Source: Chamaelirium japonicum
Lineage: Eukaryota; Streptophyta; Magnoliopsida; Liliales; Melanthiaceae
Assembly: GCA_947650365.1 (NCBI GenBank)
Contig: OX393552.1
Span: forward strand, 20,866,645 to 20,930,644
DNA: 64,000 bases
Direction of reading: 5' to 3'
Shown one piece after another: positions 6,465-61,500 of this stretch. The position numbers and the translations under genes are program-made. The stretch's first letter is position 1. Each line of letters opens with the position of its first letter. The notes under the pieces are model-generated. The model was not told the DNA's origin. It searched no databases and worked only from the letters and a program-made list of their open reading frames with translations.

Positions 6465-9400
6465 TTATGGCACATTCATCACTTGAATTGACTGCAGCGT
6501 ATCCGAAAGGGCGATGACCAGGTCACCAGACTGGATCATTCCCCTGGCCTTGAGCAAAGAAAAGGTGCGGTGGAGATTGCTATCCATGTCGTCCAAAAAA
6601 CTAAGGCGGAAGGGTATAAGACCCCACTGAAGATTCAGCCGTCTCCTCACAGACGTCGAGGTCGTGAATGCAAAGATTGGACAGTCAGGACGGCAGCGTG
6701 AAAGGATGGACGCCATGTGACCCGTCTTTGTGTAGACGAACAGTGCATCGACTTCCAAGTTATTAGCTAAAATGCAAAGGAAACAGAATCAACAACAATA
6801 AAAGCTGCTATAAATTGTAAATGTTAGCGCAACATAATGAATTCTCGACCATCTCAAAATTATTATTAATAATGAGTGTGCAGTGTCTTGGGAGTTGGGA
6901 AGTGTGACCCAGAAGGCAGCAAAAGTTTGGATCATTTCAATCATGTTGAAAGACGAGTCTGGTCATTTGCAGAGTGATGGAAACTAGAAGCTTATCACTA
7001 GCATGATCATGAAGAAAAAAGGAGTAACCAGAATCATCATCGACCAAAACGAAGGGATCCTACCACACCAGAGCATAAGACTACACGAATTGTTCAAAAC
7101 CAAGAAATATGGTTGTCCTTTTAGAGATCAAGGTTGTACAGATATTTTCACATATACAAATGAATTTACAACTGAAAAATTGAAAGGATATGACACATAG
7201 TTGGGTTTGAGGATTGTTTGGAGTCTTTGGACTAGGACAGTGTCCATAATTCAGGAGAAGTTTTGGAGAAGTTCAAGATATGTGAGACAAGACAGAGTTG
7301 TCGGGTTACACCTTGACAAAATAGCAGGATTTAACAATTCCAAAATGATCAGAACAAATTGTAAAATTGTGGCAAGTCACAGATTATTCACAAAAAGGAA
7401 AAGGAGTTCCATCATAATAAAAAAAGAAAAGAAATAACATCTTAAAAGTGAACAATTTAAGAGACAATTATGTTCCTAGTAACATAGTAAATGTGAGTAG
7501 ATAAATATCAAAACACTGCTTCATATGCTTCTGAACGGTGATTATTGGGTACAGTTGAATAAGTCCACATGCAAATAATTCATTGAGGAGTATACGATAA
7601 CTTATGGCAAGGAGGTCAATCCAGGTTATGTGAATCATAAAAACTTGGTTGAAACTAGCAATGTTTGTCACTTTAATGATATCAATGAAGTCGTTGACTT
7701 CTAGAAAAAAATTATTTCAGAATCCCTACCAACTTAGTAGTAGAAAGTAGATATATGGGCAACAATATGATGATATTGCTTACCCATTTTGGCAGCTGAA
7801 TTGCATATCTCCTCCGAGATTTTGTCTGAGAAAGAAGATGCAATATCTGGAAGCTCCATGGCTTCATGACGTTTCTCCTCTCTCCACCATCTTTCAATCC
7901 TTAGGCTCACGCTTCTCAGGACGGTAAGTGCCTTCTCTGGAAACTGTCCCATGGCTGACTCGCCAGAAAGCATTAGAGCATCTGCCCGCTGTCTTACTGC
8001 TTCTGAAACATCAGCAACTTCAGCTCTAGTAGGTGTAGGATACTCAATCATAGACTCGAGGAGCTGAGAAGCCACAATGACTGGCTTGTTGAGCTGCCTG
8101 CATGTTCTAACAATCTTCTGTTGGGCTGAAGGGACCTGCTCCAGTGGAATCTGAGCGCCCAAATCTCCTCTAGCTACCATGGCTCCATCTGATGCACGAA
8201 TGATATCTTCCAAATTTTTCAAGGAATCAATGCTTTCAATCTTCGCAATCACTGAAATATTGCTGTGGAACATAATAATCTCGTTCATTTACATTTTGAA
8301 CTAAGTAAATGTGTGAGGAAAAAAAAAAAGGATCCTGGGGATTAAAAAAAATGATCATGTGCAAAATGATTTAAGGTATTACACCAGTTGTGGACTAAAA
8401 AATTGTAAAATATGACCCTGAAAGTTGCAGGCTACTTTGAGCTATATGTGATGCTTTGCCCAAGCATAAAAAGCATTTGCGTAAAGGAAATGTGGAATGT
8501 AGATGGCTCGTGTTCTTGAATACTTTAAGTTTGGATGCTTTCGATATAAAAGAATATGATCTAAACTGACAATTTGTCACAAGCTGAAGATTTAAAGAAA
8601 CAATAGTGTTGTCTTGTTGGTACAATATTCATGATGCCATCACCAATCCTCATAACAAACAGGGAACCAGTTGTCCAAATAAGATGCCAAATGGATGGGC
8701 TGTATTTTGATTATGGTTCTTATTGAGAACAAAGATACAAGGAAAATATTAAAAAAAAACCAATCAGATATTGAAATGGGCAAAAAATGCTTGAGTTTAT
8801 TACGGGCTAACTACCCAATAACAATATATGACAAGAAAATATGTGTAGTCAATAATACTATGCATATGCAATATATTCCAACTTGCCAGCACTCTTAATA
8901 TCACGGAAAAAATAAAGCTATGTACCCCAACAGAAAATGTAATAGTCCCCCACAACCCCACACAATACCCATTCAACCCCACCCCACCCCTAAAAAAATA
9001 TTAATGGTGAGGCATGCACAGATCATTTTTCTATAGGATATAAAATACATGTAGCATCATATGATTTCCTGAAGCCGACAAGTCGAGAGGATAGAGTATA
9101 TCTCGGAGCCAGGATATAGATAACCAAATGACGACAAAGGTAACGATTGTTGATTTTATGTTACTATCACTGCTCATGGAAGACTAGAACGGCAGCAATC
9201 TGATGAACAAGATAGAGAAGGGATTGGAAATTTAAGTTACAAGGCAGGAAATACTGTAAAAACGTCAAGGTTAAAAATATAAATATTGTTAGGGATGAAA
9301 TTAGTTTTCAAAAAATAATAACATTAATGCAATTACTACGTATGCACAACAAGTATAATTGGATGAAAGAGTAAAGAGGCAATTTTGGAAGAGCCGGATC

Positions 9401-15400: not shown

Positions 15401-16251
15401 CATCTTTTCTCTAGACTGTATCCTACACATCATCTGCAGAATGTATCTTACAAAGCTATGAAGAACAAATAGTAAAATACACAGCCTGCAAGAATTTTTG
15501 AATTTATTAAACAGAATCAGTGATTTTAATAAACAAAATCCGGTAGATAAATTTTTTAATTGGAGATTTTTCACAAAGTTGACCTTTTTAGGCACCATAC
15601 CGTGCCAATCATTCCCACAAATTTAACATTAGCCCATCAGGAGGCAGTCGAGCATCATTGTCTGGCGAGTTGAAGGAAAGGAGATAAATTTACATTTAGG
15701 GAGTCGAGAAATCTCACCTCGGCCTTGGCGGAGGCGGCGCCGCCGAGGTCGCCCATGTGGATCTCGCTGCCCTCGGTGTCCATCATGACGGCCACGGCAA
15801 ACCCCTTCTCCTCGTTGAGGCGGCGGACCTGGCGGATGACGCGGCGGTGCCACTCGTGGGAGCCGTGGCACATGTTGACGCGGGCCACGTTCATCCCCCC
15901 GACGGCGAGCGCCTCCAGCTGCTCCGCCCCGCAGGTGGCCGGGCCGATCGTGCACACCAGCTTTGTCCGCCGCGTGCTCCGGAACCCGTTCTCCTTCAGC
16001 TCCGCCTCCGTCACGGCGTCCACGTCGATCGCCGCCACCGCGGCGCCGACGCCGTTGGCGGAAGCGAGGAGCGTTTGTCCGAGATCTGACGGCGGCGGCG
16101 GGGAGGCGGAGGCGCAGCAGATCCGGAGGCGGAGCGGGCGGTGGAGGAGGGAGGGGGTCGGCGGGCGGAGGCAAGGGGAGCTGGGGATGGGGAACTTGGG
16201 GAGGGATCGGGTGGGGGCTGGAGAGGCCAGGAGGTGGAGAGATTGTGCCAT
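6465..16251 (-). CDS. PKP1: Plastid pyruvate kinase, alpha (PKp1-type) subunit
   Basis: Pyruvate kinase converts phosphoenolpyruvate and ADP to pyruvate and ATP; the plastid form supplies pyruvate for fatty acid synthesis and works with beta subunits. Six exons on the minus strand are 15718-16251, 11723-11813, 11408-11601, 9962-10083, 7784-8262 and 6465-6766. All introns are GT-AG, phases match, and the 1722-nt coding sequence gives 573 residues. Residues 1 to about 48 are rich in S, P, L and R, like a transit peptide. Family motifs are [11 protein letters not shown] (96-106), NMCHG (126-130), DTEGSEIH (158-165), IAKIES (319-324, with the conserved Lys and Glu), [12 protein letters not shown] (342-353), [11 protein letters not shown] (389-399) and [10 protein letters not shown] (410-419). 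NMCHG and TEGSEIH differ from the usual NFSHG and TKGPEIR, which points to the plastid alpha branch rather than cytosolic enzymes. The GC-rich first exon contrasts with AT-rich introns. It ends QVMNVP. Confidence 0.95.
13802..15033. mobile_element. PIF/Harbinger (Tourist-like) element, nested
   Basis: The element has inverted ends GAGCATCTCCAACCATCCTG and TGTCCATTGGAGATGCTC, and a 3-bp TAA duplication at 13799-13801 and 15034-15036. A TWA duplication with GAGCATCTCC-like termini fits PIF/Harbinger MITEs. Subterminal CCTCCATTTT-type motifs are also inverted. It sits inside the foldback MITE at 13717-15283 and is itself split by the MULE-type element at 14181-14892. Confidence 0.75.
14181..14892 (-). 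mobile_element. MULE-type non-autonomous element, copy 2, innermost
   Basis: A perfect 9-bp duplication GGTTTTGGG at 14172-14180 and 14893-14901 flanks this 712-bp element. The inverted ends are CTAGGAAGCATGGACAC and GTCAGTGCTTCTTA. The left half has a GC-rich array of CGGACAC-type motifs (14210-14350). It is the same family as 3777-4332 in opposite orientation. A 9-bp duplication is typical of Mutator-like elements. Confidence 0.75.
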
Positions 16252-16334
16252 CGCTGGGTGCGCTGCCAGAACCCTAGCTGACGGAGGGAAACGGCGGGGG
16301 AATGGGAGCAGTACAGAGAGGAGGGAAGGAGAGC

Positions 16335-16345
16335 TTTTATATATA
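16335..16345 (-). promoter_or_regulatory. TATA box of the plastid pyruvate kinase gene
   Basis: Read on the minus strand this is TATATATAAAA, about 85 nt upstream of the ATG at 16251. That spacing would give a 5' UTR of roughly 55-60 nt, rich in pyrimidine tracts. I infer the transcription start near 16310; the sequence does not show it directly. Confidence 0.7.
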
Positions 16346-16399
16346 CGCGGGTGGGGAGGCAGAGAGTGCCGGGGAGGTGACGGAGTTCACGAAGTGTGA

Positions 16400-22477: not shown

Positions 22478-22790
22478 CTATATCTATATATCTATGCTAA
22501 ATTGGAAGCCTTTTTTCTGTGTTGTAACACGTGGACGTCTTTTAAAGAGCTAGAATTTTTCTTCCGTGTGTGTATGCGGCTATCTTTTAAATCCATTTAA
22601 AAATCTACCATAAAGATGATAAATTTTCATTCAATGACATTAAATGGTCATTTGATGTTACTCTCTCTCTTTCTGTTACAAGTGAATCACACTCACTTTA
22701 GATTTCACACTTCTTCGAACAGTTGCGACATCGTCTTTGCCAAATGGCGTGCATCAAGCACATTCGGGCATTGCCCAGATTTCTTACTAG
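22478..22790 (+). mobile_element. Short non-autonomous Helitron, array copy 1
   Basis: The copy begins near TCTATATATCTATGCTAAA and ends in a GGGCATTGCCC hairpin followed about ten bases later by CTAG and then T. A TC start, a 3' hairpin, a CTRR end and no target duplication are the Helitron hallmarks. There is no Rep/helicase, so it is non-autonomous. The exact 5' base is uncertain because of the TCTATA repeats. Confidence 0.75.
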
Positions 22791-23095
22791 TATATACTAA
22801 AATGGAAATCTCACTGCCATGTTGTGACACGTGAACGTCTATTAAAGAGCTAGAATTCTTCTTTCGTGTGTAAACGCAACTCTCTTTTAAATCCATTTAA
22901 AACCTACCATAAAGATGATAAATTTGCATTCAATGATATTTAATGGTCATTTGATGTTAATCTCTCTATCTCTCTCTCTCTAACAGGTGAATCACAATCC
23001 CTTCAGATTTCACACTTCTTCGAACAGTTACGATGCCGTCTTTGCCAAATGGCGTGCATCAAGCACATTCGGGCATTGTCTGGATTTCTTACTAG
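22791..23095 (+). mobile_element. Short non-autonomous Helitron, array copy 2
   Basis: It follows copy 1 directly, without spacer. It shares the TACTAAAATGGAA start, the CACTTCTTCGAACAGTT block, the GCCAAATGGCGTGCATCAAG block and the TTTCTTACTAG end. Its 3' hairpin arm is mutated (GGGCATTGTCT), and it has an expanded CTCTCTCT tract near 22965-22980. Confidence 0.75.
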
Positions 23096-23386
23096 TCTAT
23101 ATATCTATACTAAAATGGAAGCCTCTCTCCCGTGTTGTGACACGTTTTTTAAAGAGCTGAAATTCTTCGTTCGTGTGAATGCGGCTCTCTTTTAAATCTA
23201 TTTAAAATCCTACCTAAAGATGATAAATTTTCATTTAATGGTCATTTGATGTTAATCTCTCTCGCTCTCTCTCTAACAAGTGAATCACTCACTTTAGATT
23301 TCACACTTCTTCGAACAATTGTGATATTGTCTTTGCCAAATGACGTGCATCAAGTACATTCGGGCATTACCCGGGTTTCTTACTAG
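23096..23386 (+). mobile_element. Short non-autonomous Helitron, array copy 3
   Basis: It starts TCTATATATCTATACTAAAA immediately after the CTAG of copy 2 and ends GGTTTCTTACTAG. The terminal hairpin is partly decayed (GGGCATTACCCGGG). It carries a CT tract at 23257-23275. Confidence 0.75.
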
Positions 23387-23660
23387 TATCTATACTAAAA
23401 TGGAAGCCTCTCTTCCATGTTGTGACACGTGGACGCCTTTTAAAGAGCTATAATTGTTCTTTCGTGTGTGAACGCCATAAAGAAGATAAATTTTCTTTCA
23501 ATAGCATTTAATGGTCATTTGATGTCAATCTCTCTTTCTCTCTCTAATAAGTGAATTACATTCACTTCAGATTTCACACTTCTTCGAACAGTTACGATAT
23601 CGTCTTTTGCCAAATGGCGTGCATCAAGCACATTTGGGCATTGATTGGGTTTCTTACTAG
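23387..23660 (+). mobile_element. Short non-autonomous Helitron, array copy 4
   Basis: This is the last copy, again abutting the previous CTAG, with a TATCTATACTAAAATGGAAG start and TTTCTTACTAG end. Part of the internal block following GTGTGTGAACGCC is deleted relative to the other copies. Confidence 0.75.
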
Positions 23661-27089: not shown

Positions 27090-27470
27090 TATAGCAAAAA
27101 GAGTAACGTCTTTAAAAATTATTACTCTTTTGCTACCGTAAAATCAATGTAGTTATTTCTTTTCTTTGTGAAATTCTGTTGAATTTTTTTTTCCTACAGT
27201 GAAATCATTGTAGCAAAAGAGTAACAATATGTACAGATTGAGTACCAATTTTATTTGAGTAACAATTTGCACATATTGAGCAACAATATGTGCATATTGT
27301 TAATCTTTTGCTACAGTGAAATCACTATATTATTTTTTCTAAAAAATATCTTATCGAAATTTTTTTTATACAGTGAAATCATTGTAGCAATAGAGTAACA
27401 ATCTTCACATATTGTTACTCTTTTGCTAAAGTGAAATACTGTAGCAATTTATTTTTCTGTGAAATCGCAT
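27090..27470. repeat. Cluster of CTACAGTGAAATCACTGTAG-type palindromes
   Basis: At least five variants of a short interrupted palindrome (for example CTACAGTGAAATCATTGTAG) occur here, linked by GAGTAACAATATG-like segments. There is no coding capacity. The same motif family recurs at 33430-34750. Confidence 0.7.
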
Positions 27471-27939
27471 CAAAAAAAAAATGCTAACAAATCCGCGGAT
27501 TGAGTTTTGTAGCGACAAGGACGGAGGGACATGTTCTAAGGGACAATTTGATCGTTTAAAAGGGATAAAAGTCACGTGTTGGACTTGCACTAGTTGCATC
27601 CTTTGTCGGGAGGGACTTGGTGCAACACCATATGTTGGTTGTCCTTCCCCTTAAATCGATCTCTTGTCAGGGACCATTCACTAAGTCTCCCAAAAAAAAA
27701 AGACAGAAAATTGATAAGCTACCATCTATGTATAGTGTGTTATCTCCTTACCAACGGGTTCTTTCACTTCTTTTGTCCGAGCGGTACTTTCTCGCTGGTT
27801 GGGGAGGTTCCCTATTCGACTCCAGGCATGGACATTGGGGTGCAAACTTCCGTCAGGACCGTTGTTGCCTCATTCGAGCTTGTGAATCGTGGTCATTGAT
27901 GTCATGTTCTCAGGGTTATAAGAATAAATAAAAGTAACA

Positions 27940-28161
27940 GTTATGTTGCCTTCACCCCATTTTGATCTTTGCAGCTCTTTGAGCCCTTGCTCTAGTGCCC
28001 TGTTCTCTGACCGCCTGCATGATGTGGGGGAGGATTTCGGTAGTCGTACGGTCCCCCTTCAACAGTCGATTGAAGGGTAGAGTGTCAGGGATGTGGCGCG
28101 CTGTAGAGCGCTGAGCTATCGCGTGCTGAACTGTCATGCTAACACTATAGAGTAGAGAGGG

Positions 28162-28203
<42 letters not shown>

Positions 28204-28660
28204 TTAACCTTTGAATCCACTATCTCTGAAGAAGTAAAATTACTCTCGACAGACCGAGAAGTGCTTATACAAGTAGAAAGATGGTGGAATAGGCTTTGAC
28301 TGGAGTCTGATCACCAGAAGGCTCAGAGAACTCTGAAAAACAGAAAGTGGGATCTGAAATATCTGTCGGGTCTACTATTTATAGAGGTCTAGGAATATCG
28401 AGGGTTTTGGTAAATACCCGGGGGGATTTACTAGACCCCGAATAGTATGTGCGGACCCCAAGCAGGGTTGTGGGTCTCGTTGTTGTTTCCATCGGCCTCA
28501 AGCAGGACTGCGGGTCCCACTATCGTCTCCATTAGTCCCAGGCAGAGCTGCGAGTCCTACTATAGTCTCTGTGGGTCCCAGGCACGGCTACGGGTCCTAC
28601 TATCGGACGTTAGCCAGAGTTTGCACCCACACATGATAAAAAAAATGGAAATCTATACTA
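27940..28660 (-). mobile_element. Decayed LTR-type repeat, copy 1
   Basis: The segment is collinear with 40130-40920: a GTACGG motif, then AACCTTTGAATCCAC, CTACTCTCGACAG, AGTGCTTATACAA, a minus-strand TATA (ACCTCTATAAATA), a minisatellite of GGGTCCCAGGCA-like units, and the end GTTTGCACCCACA. The TATA orientation suggests an LTR on the minus strand. A (GA)n tract sits at 28175-28203. Exact LTR ends were not found. Confidence 0.5.
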
Positions 28661-28884
28661 CAGTATTGTTGGAGTTTAGTCCCGCATCGGCTAGTAAGCT
28701 ATGCAGTGTTGTCGTCATATACCCTCTATGGACCTGTGATGACCAAGATCCAATAGCCAATAGCCAATAGCCAAGAGCCAAGACTCCTAAGGCTGGGATG
28801 TCAAGATGGATAAGGTGAGGTGTACAAGGCCACGAGTTAGCCCACATCCCCTGGAGAGAAGGAGATCCTGAGCTACTTATATAA

Positions 28885-28997
28885 CTAGTAAGAAACCCGG
28901 GCAATGCCCGAATGTGCTTGATGCACGCCATTTGGCAAAGACGACATCGTAACTGTTCGAATAAGTGTGAAATCTGAAGTGAGTGTGATTCACTTAT

Positions 28998-29046
<49 letters not shown>

Positions 29047-29212
29047 TAACATCAAATGACCATTAAATAAAAATCTATCATCTTTATGGTAGATTTTTAA
29101 ATGGATTTAAAAGAGAGCCACGTTCACACACGGAAGAAGAATTCTAGCTCTTTAAAAGACGTTCACATGTCACAACACGGGAGAGAAACTTCCATTTTAG
29201 TATATATATAGA
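28885..29212 (-). mobile_element. Non-autonomous Helitron inserted in Cassandra LTR1
   Basis: On the minus strand it runs from TCTATATATATACTAAAATG to TTTCTTACTAG, with the hairpin CCGGGCAATGCCCG next to its 3' end (28898-28910). The host sequence on either side, TTATATAA and TTTCCCCTCC, joins to match LTR2 (TTATATAATTTTTCCTCC), so both insertion points are exact and lie between A and T. It is 328 bp, the same family as the array at 22478-23660, and carries a (GA)n tract at 29000-29044. Confidence 0.9.
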
Positions 29213-29244
29213 TTTCCCCTCCCGAATATAGAATGTGCGTTTTA

Positions 29245-29350
29245 AAACCGTGCGCCGCTACGGATTTCATAAGAACTATGTAGGTTAACGTGCTCGGGCG
29301 AGAGTAGTACTAAGATGGGTGACCCCCTAGGAAGATCTCGTGCGGGCATG
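29245..29350 (+). repeat. 5S rRNA-like segment of Cassandra LTR1
   Basis: The core reads TAAC-GTGCTCGGGCGAGAGTAG, then GATGGGTGACC and CGTGC, corresponding to the internal pol III promoter half of plant 5S rRNA. Several 5S positions differ, and the setting inside two LTRs shows that it is not a functional 5S gene. Confidence 0.85.
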
Positions 29351-29660
29351 GACAAAGCAGACAATATATATATTGTATGTTTGGGCGGATGTTACAAAAA
29401 TGGTATCAGAGTCGGTTCAATTCTCCTCGGGATGGGGGGATCTAACCCTACATATGGACGTGTTGCTCTAAGGGGGGTGGATTGTGACGATCAAGATCCA
29501 ATAGCCAAGAGCCAAGACTTCTGTGGCTGTGATGCCAAGATGGATAAGATGAGGTAAGTTGTACAAGGCCACGAGTTAGCCTCACATCGCCTGGAGAGAA
29601 GAAGATCATGAGCTAGTTATATAATTTTTCCTCCCAAACATAGAAGACATGTTTTAAAAT

Positions 29661-29766
29661 CGTGCGTCACTACGTATTTCGTTAGAACTCCGTAGTTAAG
29701 TGTACTTGCTCGGACGAGAGCAATACTTAGGATGGGTGACCCCTTGGGAAGTTCTTGTGCGGGCAT
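29661..29766 (+). repeat. 5S rRNA-like segment of Cassandra LTR2
   Basis: It contains AACTCCGTAGTTAAGTG, GCTCGGACGAGAG and AGGATGGGTGACCCC. It is closer to genuine 5S rRNA in the AACTCCG-AGTTAAG block than the LTR1 copy. Confidence 0.85.
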
Positions 29767-30651
29767 GGTCAAAGCGAACAATATCTTGTGTGTTTGGGGT
29801 GGGTGTTACAGGACCACCCCATACGACTCGGGTTATAGGACGTAAGGGTATCTAACATGGCATCGGAGAAGGCTTGACGTATGCCCATTAAGCCGAGTGC
29901 ATGGGAACCTACCCACATTACAAGGATCGGACGAAACCGACGTACACGTATGGGGGAGTTGCTGTTTAGTCCCACATCAACTAACTGTCTCAGCAGTGTT
30001 GTCTTTATACATCCTTTGTGGACCTACCCTACGATCCGAGATTTGGGGTGTGAGGGTAACTATAGGAAAGGTTGTGTTTTTTATTTTTAAAATTTCCTAT
30101 ATAATTCTGGTTGTCCGAATTTGATGCATAATGGCATCAGAGCTATCCAAGGAGGGCGCAGTCAGATTCACTTATGGGGTGATGGCCATCGAGCAATTGT
30201 GAGTTTGTGACATGAATCAGAGTGGCATACATGACTCTTGTGTGTCATCCGTCTTGCATAGGGTCAGACTAGTTGAAACCATATGTTACATATCTCGAAT
30301 CGCTAATGTTCCAACTTTTTTTTTCTTTTGCTGGATCGGCCCGGCGGTCAAAGGATAGGGCATTAGAGCAATAGCTCAATGAGATCCGGAGATCGAAACA
30401 GGAGGAGGAAGGCAGCAATTGCTAGTTATTTTTTTTATAATCCTATGAACATGATGACATCAACGACTGGATTTGCATGCGCAAACAAGGCACAATGTCC
30501 TTGGTCTTATTCCTCTTTATCCCTTTTGATATTTGTATTTCATATTATGTGTATACATAGGGTTTTTAAATATAAAATGAGGATATATATAAAATGGAGT
30601 TTTTTAATATAAAGTAAAAAGAAAATCTAATTATTCAGACTTGTGGTTGGA

Positions 30652-31058: not shown

Positions 31059-31170
31059 TGGTTGGAATGCATGCGTCTCCAAATCAACTCTATCTTCAAT
31101 TTGGAGCACGTGGCCCCCAAAATTAGACAGTTATAGATGCTCTCTGACAATTTTTTTTTTTTTAAAAAAA

Positions 31171-31301
31171 GAGTAATGCTATTTGAACAAACTGGATTGA
31201 CAATCTCATTGACAAACCAGACTCATGGGCCATGGAGTGGTGGCGATAGGGCCCACTTGACAATCTCATTGACAAACCATTTTGTTCAAATAGTATTACT
31301 C
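31171..31301. mobile_element. 131-bp MITE with GAGTAATGCTATTTGAACAA ends
   Basis: The termini are inverted with one or two mismatches, GAGTAATGCTATTTGAACAA against TTGTTCAAATAGTATTACTC. The 20-bp segment TTGACAATCTCATTGACAAA occurs twice as a direct repeat inside. A one-ended relative lies at 16698. Homopolymers at both flanks hide the target duplication. Confidence 0.75.
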
Positions 31302-31350
31302 TTTTTTATTTTTTTAAGACTACTTGGAATTCATGGTGCATTACTCTGTT

Positions 31351-35369: not shown

Positions 35370-37205
35370 CTAGTGGTGACTTGCCATTTCATCCCCTTAG
35401 CCAAGAGATTCCGGACTAGAAGGATGCTATGCCAGATATGAGAGGAATTGGAGGCTTGTGCCATCTGTCAAAATGAAGCTTGTTTCACGTATTTATAGTG
35501 TAGGATTTGGGCCCATAGAGCAGAGGGGTCTGAGATGAATTGCCAACTGAGTTTGGCCAATAAGGATTGGTTGACAGCTTCAATTTTCTGTATACCAAGC
35601 CCACCTTCTTCTTTGGCTTTGTGAAAATGGGACCAAGCTTTGAGATATAGATGTCTAGAGCCTTGTTTGTGTCCCCACCAAAAATCCCGTTGGAGAGCAT
35701 TGAGTTTCTTACAAATAGCCTTGGAGAACAGGAGTGTGGACATGAAAGAGATAGGTAATGTGCTCAGTACCGATTTGATGAGGACCGTCTTGCTAGCATG
35801 AGAGAAGAGCTTACATTTCCAAGCTTTCAGTCGACTTTGGAATTTTTCAACTATGAATGAAAATGATTTGGATTTCTTTCGCTCTAAGAACAACGATCCA
35901 CCTAAGTAGGTATCCTTGGAATTCATCAGGGGAACCTTAAGGATCAAAGTGATATATGTTTTGATGTGGAGTGGAGTTTTTCCACTGAAGAGAATGACAA
36001 ATTTCTCATAATTTACTAATTGGCCTGACCAAGCACCAAATTCTTGAAGACAAATATTGATCTTGGTTATATCCAATAATCTTGCACGCCCGAATATGAA
36101 GCGATCATCGGCGAAGAGGAGATGACTAATACTCAGCGAGGACTGGCTACCTTTGATTCCAGAAATGCTTTCAGTAGAATCCAGTTTATCAAGGGAGTGA
36201 GATAAGATCTTCATTCCCAAGATAAATAAGAACGGGGAGAGAGGGCAACTTTGGCGGAGCCCTCTTTCTGGGATGATAAGACCTTGAGGGCTGCCATTAA
36301 TGAGGACGGAGATTGAGGAAGTAGTGATGCACCCCATGATTAAGTTGATGAAGCTTCGGGAGAAACCAAAGAATTTAAAAGCATCATCGATAAAGCTCCA
36401 TTCCATTCTGTCGAATACTTTAGACATATCGAGTTTGAGAGCATATAAGCCACTTGTACCTCTTTTGAGCTTCATAGTATGAAGGATATCTTGAGCTATT
36501 GTAGTGCTGTAAGAGATTTGCCTTTTGGGGACGAAAGCACTTTGGTTTGGGGAAATTAATTTACCGATGATCGGGCGAAGCCGATTTGCTAATATTTTTG
36601 TGATGACTTTGTAAGCAATGTTGCACAATGAGATCGGCCAGTAATGAGTTGGTTCTTCTGTTGCGTCCTTGTTTGAAATAAGAACGATAAATGTGTGATT
36701 AACTCCAGATGGTAGCTCTTTATTGCAGAAGAAGCCTTGCACAAAGTTTACTAGCTCATCTTGGATGAGATTCCAGTAAGTTTGATAGAATAATGCTGGA
36801 AAGCCATCAGGTCTCAGACTTTTTAGTGGACCCATGTTCATGATTGCTTCCTTGATTTCTTGCAAAAGTGGCACTTGACAAAGAAAAAGATTGTCAGTGT
36901 TAGAGACAAGAGAGGTGGGTGGGGGGATGGAAGATGGTAGGAGAGGTAAAGGCTTGGTTGAAGTAAAGATGTTATGGAAGTATGAGGTGAATGTGTTGGT
37001 AATGGCCGGCGGAGTCATCCTCCACCCATTCTCCCGATTGATTGCGAATGTCATGGATGTGATTTTTCCTCCTTCGGTTAAGGGTAGAAACATGGAAGAA
37101 CGAGGTATTGTAGTCTTCCTCTTGAAGCCAATGAATTTTGGATCTTTGTTTCAAGAAAAGCTCTTCTTTGGTGTTGAGATCTTCATAATCTTTGGTTTGA
37201 CCCGA
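35370..37205 (-). mobile_element. Truncated L1-type LINE, reverse transcriptase fragment
   Basis: The minus strand is open for 541 codons (35468-37093). It carries RT hallmarks: SLRPDGFPALFYQ, ALKLDMSKVFDRMEW, GLRQSCPLSPFLFILGM and HLLFADDRFIFGRA, where FADD is the catalytic box. A thumb/connection-like part with WKCKLFSHASKTVLIKSVLS follows. An upstream piece in another frame (37070-37200) reads EELFLKQRSKIHWLQEED, so there is a frameshift near 37090. Downstream, the same frame continues past a TGA at 35471 with SSHIWHSILLVRNLL. The endonuclease domain and most of the RNase H end are missing. It is a non-functional fragment. Confidence 0.9.
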
Positions 37206-58520: not shown

Positions 58521-61500
58521 TTTTTGATGTTTGTTATTGATATTTCAGACAAAAAATATTTACTTATTAATTTAGTAGTGATTCATGACGAATCGTATCC
58601 TACATTTTCAAGAATTGTCATATTGACGTATCTGTATCGTATTGTATCCGTATCTTGTATCTGTTGAGGAAGTCCACCGATTAGTCCCACATCGGTAAAA
58701 GGGGCACCTAACGCTGTGAGGGTATCTAACATGGTATAACCATGCTTCATAGCATGCGACACATGTTAGATATTGTATCGTGTTTGTGGTTTCGGCGGAA
58801 GGTTATGTCAATAGCTCATTTGATCTATTATTTTGGCCAAAATGGCAAACAACATGCAACATATGTCCCATCATGTCACCATATGTCGATTGACGAGTGC
58901 TTTTCTCACTTCTATAATGCTTGAGCTTTTGTTTTGAAAGCTCTCAGACCAGCCAAACTATGAGCTTCTAACTGAGAAGGATTGTTTTGGGGTTGCAAGC
59001 CTTCGAGTCTTAAACGTCATCTTCAAACCTTGAACTTCAATTTTCCTAGTTGGGGGAGACTAGAAACAAGAGTAGAACTAGAGAACCACAATCCATAATC
59101 AGTCAATCAACTTCAAGCCTTCAAATTGCAAGTGCAACTTTTATTTTTGAAGGTCGAGTAGCCCAAGCTTAGTTTAGATTGTTTCTCTTAAAAATAATGC
59201 AATCTATAGTAGGTTTATGTTCTAAATTGGCATTTATAGCTCAATCAAAAGAAGAGTATACCCTCTACTATTATCCATCATTGTCCTATCTTTCGACCAT
59301 TGATAAGACCTAAATCGATGACAAATGCCAAAATCAACCTACATTTTTTCAAAAATTCCACCAAAATTGTCTTAAAAATCCAAAATTTCTAACAATTTTT
59401 GTTTTTGAAATTTTGATAAATTTCCTTTTCATGTCTAAGCAAAATCGACACCGAAAACAACATTTAAACCTTGACAGTGCCTGATAGTGCTATTCGTCGT
59501 GGTATAATACTTATAGTAAGGTGCATTCTTCTACAACTTTTGAATTCACTATAACTGATCAGTTGTATATCTAATCCTTGTTGCTTAAATTATTCAACTC
59601 TGACTGATGTTCCTGTGTGTTTTATCGTTGATGCAACAAAACCTGTTCTCATTTCTCCATCTGTTGCTGCATCCTGCAGCAACCCATAGCCCAATCACCT
59701 TCCCATGTGCACCAGGTGTTCGCCATCTATAGCTCATCCGGTACCCCTATTACCTTCTATATACAGTCAGCCCCTCCTTGGAGTCCTAAAGGACGTCAGG
59801 CGAACACTTGACCGGGTCAGCCCCCACTGTTGCCTAGTATAGCTGTGCGGTTCCATGGAGAACAATCCTACTCACCCAAGTTGGGAAATACTACTTACAC
59901 AGTTTGGGGTATATTAATCCTACAAAGAAGGGACTAATAATGGTTAGCCGACTTTTTTTGTATATACAAATAGGGACCAAACACCACAGTTGAATCAATC
60001 AATATGCGTTAGGTTTCTCTATGTAATTATTGTTTTTTATTTCGTTGATGAGTCGCCTTTGATGCGACATCATGGTAAATATTGCTGTGACGATTGATGT
60101 CCATTAGAAGTGAGATGCTTCTACTACTTATTCCTTTCTATGTCTGCAATTTTACCTTTAATTTCTGCATCTTTTACTTGCTTTAGTTTTTGCTTCATAA
60201 ATCCTTTGTTCGTAATCCAAAGTTCCCACCTTATAAAGTCCCCCAACCAGCGTCAATATCCAGAAATTTTTTTACAGAATTTTCTGGGCAATAAAGAATA
60301 GATCGTCCAATTTGACCCACTAATACTCTTCCAAAGGGAAAACCCTAACATACCAGCATCCCTACTACTTCAAAAATAGATCGTACTTGGATACATCTCC
60401 TATTACCAGAACAGTGCACAACCAAAATCCCTTCTAAACCCTAGTTCTTCCAAAGCTTCCAAAGCAATTAATCTCCCTCATAAAAGGAGAAGTTAAAGGA
60501 AACAACCAAGTGCTGGAGCTGAGAGTCTGAGACGGGTTAAGAATCAAGAACAAGCACATTGATAGTGTTTACATAGTTTGGTTGGTCTATTGAACCATCC
60601 CGTCTTATTCATCCCCAGCACATTCATTTAGTCGCAATATTTGTGTAGGTAAAATTTATGACTTGCTCCCAATATTGTTGGAATTGCTAACTTGAGCATA
60701 CTTATGAGCTATATACTACTCCCAATAGTTTAACAACCCATCAGTAGGTGTTTGCAACAAGAAATTAGGATTGAGCTGATACAGAAAAGCATAAAAGAAA
60801 ACAAGGGCAGAAGGAGAACTAGAAACAAGCAAATCATAACAAGAGAATTTAAAGAAGACTGGAAAGGTGAAGACTCAAAGAGAGCTCCGACCACCTAAAA
60901 TAACCAGATCATAAAATTTTGTCCCACAAGGGAATTCCTTGTAAAGATGCAAGTATACCTTTAGAATAACTCGTTTGTTCATGTTTCCAAGCTGCTTGCT
61001 CCCTCAAAACATGTAAAAGTTCAAGAGTTGTAGAAGACTTCTTATCTCCACCACTAGTAATAGGTCCTTTTAAAGTTTTCCCCTCGACCGAACAAGCATC
61101 CACTTTTGTACTGCCTGTAAAGGAATAATAAAGTGTCAAAGAAAAACCAAGTATAATGAGATTACAATATATCAATAGAAATGCTATTCAGCCCGAAGGT
61201 TTTCCCGATTTTGCCGGCCCAATTGACATGGCAGCGTGCAACTGATGGCTGAAACCCACTAGCAACATTTAAGTCTATTACACCACCAGTTGCACGCTGC
61301 CACGCCAATCGGGCTGAGCGGAATTGGGAAAACCTTCGGGCCGAATAGCATTGTCCATATATCAAATTCGTTTGCAACGGCAATTGCGATTAAAATAATT
61401 ACTTTCAATCTAGCATCTCATAGCAGTTTGGTAGACCAAAGGATAATAAGATTTAAGGAAAAGTATTTTCATCTGAATTTTGAGACCACACTTCTCATTT

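Follow-up and report, generated by a model that had tools for sequence, protein, structure and literature searches.

Plant retroelements are commonly nested (PMC6911290), and by the account in PMC7251063 about a quarter of nested elements carry LTRs that are more diverged than those of their host. Tandem TRIM arrays and nesting in general are treated in PMC4717578, and lengths of 563-968 bp are given for angiosperm Cassandra elements in PMC10853983. Among the support cited for rolling-circle transposition are tandem Helitron arrays (PMC5876387). For a fungal array of three copies, both serial insertion at the 5' end and rolling-circle replication are named (PMC5148889), so the idea of serial insertion is not new. 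The titles and abstract openings of the literature searched contained no nest of a Helitron within a Cassandra within a TRIM.

Here we describe a locus in a window of 64,000 nucleotides (the whole stretch of DNA analysed) from Chamaelirium japonicum that almost certainly consists of exactly these three transposons, a Helitron within a Cassandra within a TRIM. An initial annotation had claimed a three-layer nest at 28667..30062; all three layers were found there, and its coordinates for Cassandra and the Helitron were exact to the single base. Each layer is an ordinary copy of an already known kind of element, and all three are multicopy in the window's own assembly of 1.52 Gb (3253 contigs).

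The outermost element spans 28667 to approximately 30065 on the plus strand and measures, without Cassandra, approximately 315 bp with no coding region. Its first LTR is split: the 5' part (28667-28734) starts with TGTTGG and runs up to the Cassandra target, and the 3' part (29816-29857) ends in TATCTAACA, as do most copies of the family. In an ungapped comparison the 5' part is identical to 29957-30024 at 49/68 positions, with no other place in the window exceeding 32/68. A degraded primer binding site (PBS) reading TGGCATCGGAGA, where the family mostly has TGGTATCAGAGC, lies at 29858-29869. It opens an internal region of approximately 99 bp (29858-29956) that, by family comparison, closes with a polypurine tract (PPT), the tract possibly extending to 29958. 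LTR2 (29957-30065), in which the Cassandra target is uninterrupted, follows.

The TRIM family comprises at least 67 matches in the assembly, the nest copy included, with 40 of 462 candidates scored. In eleven further loci (L010-L020) the family start TGTTGG was seen, and the LTRs mostly run from TGTTGG to TATCTAACA, followed by a site resembling TGGTATCAGAGC; before the second LTR stands a PPT, GCACGTGAGGGGGAG or a variant of it. Exact 5-bp target-site duplications were identified by eye in two of the eleven, GGCTA in L018, which is a three-LTR array, and GATGG in L017. The host had at first been described as TRIM-like; a family with PBS, PPT and 5-bp duplications in these two loci upgrades it to a TRIM. 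Its borders called for amendment: no target duplication was detected, LTR2 may start anywhere from about 29957 to 29959, and its 3' end is degraded at about 30058-30065. A scan of starts 28662-28670 against ends 30052-30071 yielded no 5-bp match and one 4-bp match whose ends are not LTR-like; the best pair from 28667 is AGTAT/ACTAT with one mismatch. The duplication of this copy may have decayed. Because it is lacking in the nest and exact in L017 and L018, the assignment to TRIM rests on the family. A third TRIM LTR beside the nest was sought and none was found in the window. An isolated relative, consisting of an LTR end and the start of a PBS, lies alone at approximately 58662-58737 and carries a TTAGTCCCACATCGG box as well as GAGGGTATCTAACA with TGGTAT after it.

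The 3' border of the TRIM is not closed. Beyond the decayed end of LTR2 (30058-30065), 70 bp of further sequence reach a second PBS-like site, TGGCATCAGAGC at 30132, and a likely relic of another LTR element (LTR end plus PBS) occupies 30063-30190, perhaps fused to the TRIM LTR2. Among the matches found in the assembly for 30077-30189 (3 of 3 candidates scored, itself included) there are just two diverged relatives (76% and 74%; L046 and L047), which read TGGCATCATAGC and TAGTATCAGAGC at the PBS-like point, one of them with a TTTAGTCCCACGTCGG box upstream. In another TRIM copy (L011) LTR2 nearly abuts TGGTATCAGAGCCC, a join that resembles the one in the nest. These sites and the absence of a target duplication favour the alternative that the TRIM is not cleanly bounded, its LTR2 having been joined to the downstream element at 30063-30190 by recombination or template switching so that the whole forms a larger or mosaic retroelement. 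We regard this as unlikely but deserving serious attention. Against it, LTR1, PBS, internal region, PPT and LTR2 follow one another in the usual order and spacing of the family, and some other TRIM copies have clean ends and target duplications. Such a fusion would moreover affect the 3' border alone and leave the nesting of Cassandra in the TRIM unchanged.

Several other features were observed around the nest and elsewhere in the window. A multicopy LTR-like stretch at 28250-28633, read as minus strand, ends at approximately 28633, some 33 bp before the TRIM; its family comprises at least 53 matches including itself (40 of 4486 candidates scored). The nest is flanked at 30316-30503 and 27892-28015 by two mutually related, oppositely oriented stretches that may be SINE-like. 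Their candidate reading as gag fragments was dropped, as 30316-30503 appears from its matches to belong to a dispersed repeat of approximately 185 bp (40 of 1698 candidates scored). Inverted repeats of the MITE kind are present at 27097-27440 (arms of 53 nt, 83% complementary) and 31165-31307 (51 nt, 84%). On the minus strand, open frames at 7737-8288 and 15658-16386 match pyruvate kinase (Pfam PF00224) and are probably exons of one gene. A 560-amino-acid minus-strand open frame at 35471-37150 with a reverse transcriptase domain (PF00078) probably belongs to what we take to be a LINE-type element.

Cassandra lies within the first TRIM LTR on the plus strand. The two LTRs, PBS, PPT and GGACC duplication that had been claimed for it were all recovered. 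The GGACC copies, identified by flank comparison at 28730-28734 and 29811-29815, sit directly at the two outer ends, and among 328 pairs of TGTGA and TACA spaced 500-1500 bp apart in the window only one, this Cassandra, has equal 5-bp flanks. LTR1 (28735-29396) is divided into a 5' part (28735-28884) and a 3' part (29213-29396); with 28885-29212 removed it is 334 bp long and runs from TGTGATGA to TGTTACA. LTR2 (29483-29810; 328 bp) runs from TGTGACGA to TGTTACA and lacks the Helitron. Between them is an internal region of 86 bp with a PBS, TGGTATCAGAGT (29401-29412), that agrees at 11/12 positions with the published TGGTATCAGAGC and stands at the same place in other copies, and a PPT, TAAGGGGGGTGGAT (29469-29482), read from the sequence. 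Without the Helitron the element measures 748 bp; its LTRs are of the TG..CA type and it has no coding region. A 5S rRNA-like stretch is found in each LTR (Rfam RF00001), at 29234-29351 in LTR1 with 38.6 bits, above the gathering score of 38, and at 29647-29769 in LTR2 with 28.0 bits, below it. Scored against published Cassandra motifs (PMC7215508), box C is intact in both LTRs (13/13) and box A is retained at 9/12 positions in LTR1 and 11/12 in LTR2, so the Pol III promoter is partly decayed.

The two LTRs had been predicted to align once the Helitron is taken out, and they do so from end to end, sharing 272 of the 312 aligned bases (the differences being 28 transitions and 12 transversions; K2P 0.143, bootstrap 0.100-0.191). 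The alignment score was 342 with the insert removed and 18 with the insert kept, against a shuffle maximum of -81 (n = 200), and when 328-bp blocks were removed in turn the best score was reached, in a tie, at starts 28884 and 28885. A search of the assembly with LTR2 gave at least 71 matches including itself (40 of 5650 candidates scored), many of them in tandem arrays with LTRs approximately 400-420 bp apart. LTR ends and PBS are of this type in all seven other loci read (L002-L008), and a PPT is present in 5/7, with CTAAGGGGGGTGGAT or a one-letter variant before an LTR in L003, L005, L006, L007 and L008.

Since Cassandra is often tandem, here and elsewhere (PMC7215508), LTR1 and LTR2 might be two separate insertions or a collapsed tandem array. 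A family alignment of both with 13 other full LTRs from seven loci, partial LTRs being excluded, contains points that would suit such an origin. In this alignment LTR1 and LTR2 agree at 262/317 sites and share one change against the majority; their K2P of 0.201 is at least as large as the distances to the 13 other copies (0.115-0.172). They do not pair in the LTR tree, which is nearly star-like and in which their end branches (0.12 and 0.096) are the longest of 15. A star-like tree is what is expected of an old single insertion whose two LTRs begin as copies of a common source, and is by itself no proof of pairing. LTR1 and LTR2 are taken as a pair because GGACC is exact at both outer ends and there is a single internal region, with PBS and PPT normally placed. 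The target is, moreover, uninterrupted in the TRIM LTR2 and in all 16 other aligned TRIM LTRs, one of which has 3 bases missing there. These 16 are near-complete LTRs from L010-L020; partial or broken ones were left out, and filled sites with them, so they document what the site looks like when empty and give no measure of how frequently it is occupied. We therefore consider an origin of LTR1 and LTR2 from separate insertions or a collapsed array very improbable, and the reading as a single Cassandra insertion is retained.

The innermost layer is a non-autonomous Helitron of 328 bp at 28885-29212 on the minus strand, identified by its termini, its hairpin and its absence from LTR2. CTAG at 28885-28888 forms the 3' end and TC at 29211-29212 the 5' end; read on the minus strand, the element runs from TCTATATATATACTAAAA to CGGGCATTGCCCGGGTTTCTTACTAG, with A before it and T after it, and contains a 46-bp CT tract. 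A GC-rich hairpin with a perfect stem of 5 bp, extended by G-T pairs, precedes CTAG. No duplication accompanies the insertion, which separates A from T at a point 21 bp upstream of the 5S-like part of LTR1, and the Cassandra LTR2 is its empty site. Scoring 40 of 3114 candidates gave at least 94 matches, the nest copy included, spread over 40 places. Compared with four relatives in the window, the nest copy has the fewest private changes of the five (3 in 224 columns vs. 5-9), which fits a fairly late arrival and gives no date of insertion. The CT tract is a microsatellite carried in the transposon family, its longest run varying from 4 to 72 bp among 53 monomers. That 28885-29212 is some other insert or filler, as its CT repeats and its lack of a coding region of the length that a Helitron protein needs (328 bp is too short for Rep/helicase) might suggest, is scarcely credible given its TC and CTAG ends, 3' hairpin, A/T target without duplication, and dispersed genomic family with the same ends.

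The order of insertion, TRIM first, then Cassandra, then the Helitron, follows from the geometry of the nest, which dictates the sequence of events. It is further supported by divergence and by empty sites inside the nest itself, namely the Cassandra LTR2 without a Helitron and the TRIM LTR2 without a Cassandra. The relative ages first proposed for the three layers are thus backed by geometry and by empty sites from the same genome. With the join corrected, the TRIM LTRs are identical at 75/109 positions. In the family alignments they show 34/109 differences (K2P 0.413) vs. 55/317 (K2P 0.201) for the Cassandra LTRs (Fisher p = 0.004). The same contrast gave p = 0.010 or 0.005 in pairwise alignments and p = 0.14 or 0.06, not significant, with mixed measures; the tests in these two sets that use TRIM counts of 24/99 start from a join that kept both GGACC copies and are slightly off. 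LTR divergence appears to agree with the nest order, as supportive and not decisive evidence, and does not contradict it, unlike the quarter of cases referred to in PMC7251063. By way of illustration, a grass rate printed as 1.3x10^8 in PMC3281118, taken here as 1.3 x 10^-8, would place Cassandra at approximately 5.5-8 and the TRIM at approximately 12-16 million years, although that rate may not be the host's.

The course of events would have been as follows. A non-coding TRIM of approximately 315 bp, retrotransposed by enzymes made elsewhere, would have inserted first. A non-coding Cassandra (748 bp without its insert, 5S-like in its LTRs) would then have integrated into the TRIM LTR1 through a 5-bp staggered cut, giving the GGACC duplication. 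Lastly, the 328-bp non-autonomous Helitron would have entered the Cassandra LTR1 without duplication, between the A and the T where TTATATAA meets TTT. Autonomous partners are the presumed source of the enzymes for these steps, and the TA-rich sequence may have attracted the Helitron.

By BLAST within the window, the nest Helitron has four relatives arranged head to tail at 22487-23660, on the opposite strand. Abutting matches occur at no fewer than 23 of the 40 places in the assembly and single matches at 16; on reading, two of the latter (L023 and L025) turned out to contain additional copies, which makes 23 a minimum. The arrays studied were the one in the window, those among 14 loci found by similarity to the nest copy (L021-L034, nest included), and ten regions chosen for several matches or abutting pieces (L056-L065). 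Every one of the 51 junctions that carry an exact CTAG starts with T (TA 37, TC 10, TT 3, TG 1), which agrees with the rule of an A/T target; the arrays C10 and C12, duplicates of each other, contribute one junction each. A precise circle or concatemer junction would need TC. Many junctions are cut within the TA-rich 5' tip, so that TATAT, TATATAT or TATCTAT stands before ACTAAAA.

Remnants of such tips were counted as TCTA motifs within 70 bp to the left of an array's first copy. There are 3 in the window, 3 in L022, 4 in L023, 2 in L024, 3 in L025, 2 in L026, 5 in L027, 1 in L028, 6 in L030, 3 in L031 (0 if taken before a doubtful first copy), 5 in L032 and 4 in L033; to the left of single copies there are 2 in L021, 0 in L029 and 2 in L034. 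A copy's own tip should supply at least one of these, and L021 and L025 each have one that is clearly outside that tip.

Monomers that share an array are not more closely related than monomers from different places. The nearest relative lay in the same array for 1/69 monomers, compared with a mean of 2.3 for shuffled labels, and mean K was 0.159 within arrays (86 pairs) and 0.167 between them (2840 pairs), with 20% of shuffles as low or lower. With the monomer nearest the query dropped from each array to counter fetch bias, the values were 2/39 and 0.172 within vs. 0.189 between (no shuffles), and a smaller locus set gave 1/49 and 0.187 vs. 0.193. As a positive control, 3/3 monomers of C10 were matched to their partner in C12, the duplicate of that array; two of the three C12 monomers were excluded from the main kinship counts.

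Because kinship within arrays is no closer than the shuffles allow for, the arrays look like stacks of independent insertions. We lean towards the view that they grow by self-targeting, copies from anywhere inserting at A/T within, or immediately beyond, the TA-rich 5' tip of a copy already present, and not as rolling-circle concatemers or by tandem duplication; the TA-rich TTATATAA next to TTT at the nest copy would be the same sort of site. Two results speak against self-targeting or fail to support it: L028, with two junctions, has no extra TCTA remnant, and the left-right age gradient predicted by self-insertion was not supported (Spearman 0.20, p = 0.16, n = 49). Extra TCTA copies could also arise by slippage in TA repeats.

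The nest provides a clean relative clock, with three families ordered at one locus and two inner insertions that have internal empty sites, and it allows a check on LTR-divergence dating, which contradicts nest order in about one quarter of cases (PMC7251063). The array result is more unexpected and of more weight than the nest, since serial, self-targeted insertion is what the arrays of this family suggest in this genome. As in the nested plant LTR retrotransposons described in PMC6911290 and PMC7251063, nesting serves as a relative clock; here, in contrast, the two retroelements are miniatures without coding capacity, and the third layer, nested in Cassandra, is a DNA element. With plant TRIM families as characterized in PMC4717578 the host shares its size of approximately 315 bp, LTRs of approximately 109 bp, a methionine-type PBS, a PPT and the absence of coding, as well as a three-LTR tandem relative (L018) and exact 5-bp duplications in two relatives, whereas the nest copy itself has lost its duplication and a clean 3' end. 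Cassandra corresponds to the elements of PMC7215508 and PMC10853983 in its 5S-like LTRs, methionine-type PBS, PPT, non-coding nature and a size within their range, and tandem relatives like those in PMC7215508 are present in the nest's own genome; compared with a typical Cassandra it is old, with box A decayed in LTR1 (9/12) and LTR1 split by the Helitron. The Helitron, finally, has the TC...CTAG ends, hairpin, A/T target, lack of duplication and many head-to-tail relatives of the non-autonomous Helitrons cited as tandem in plants and bats (PMC5876387, PMC5148889), but the arrays examined from its family do not have the appearance of rolling-circle concatemers.
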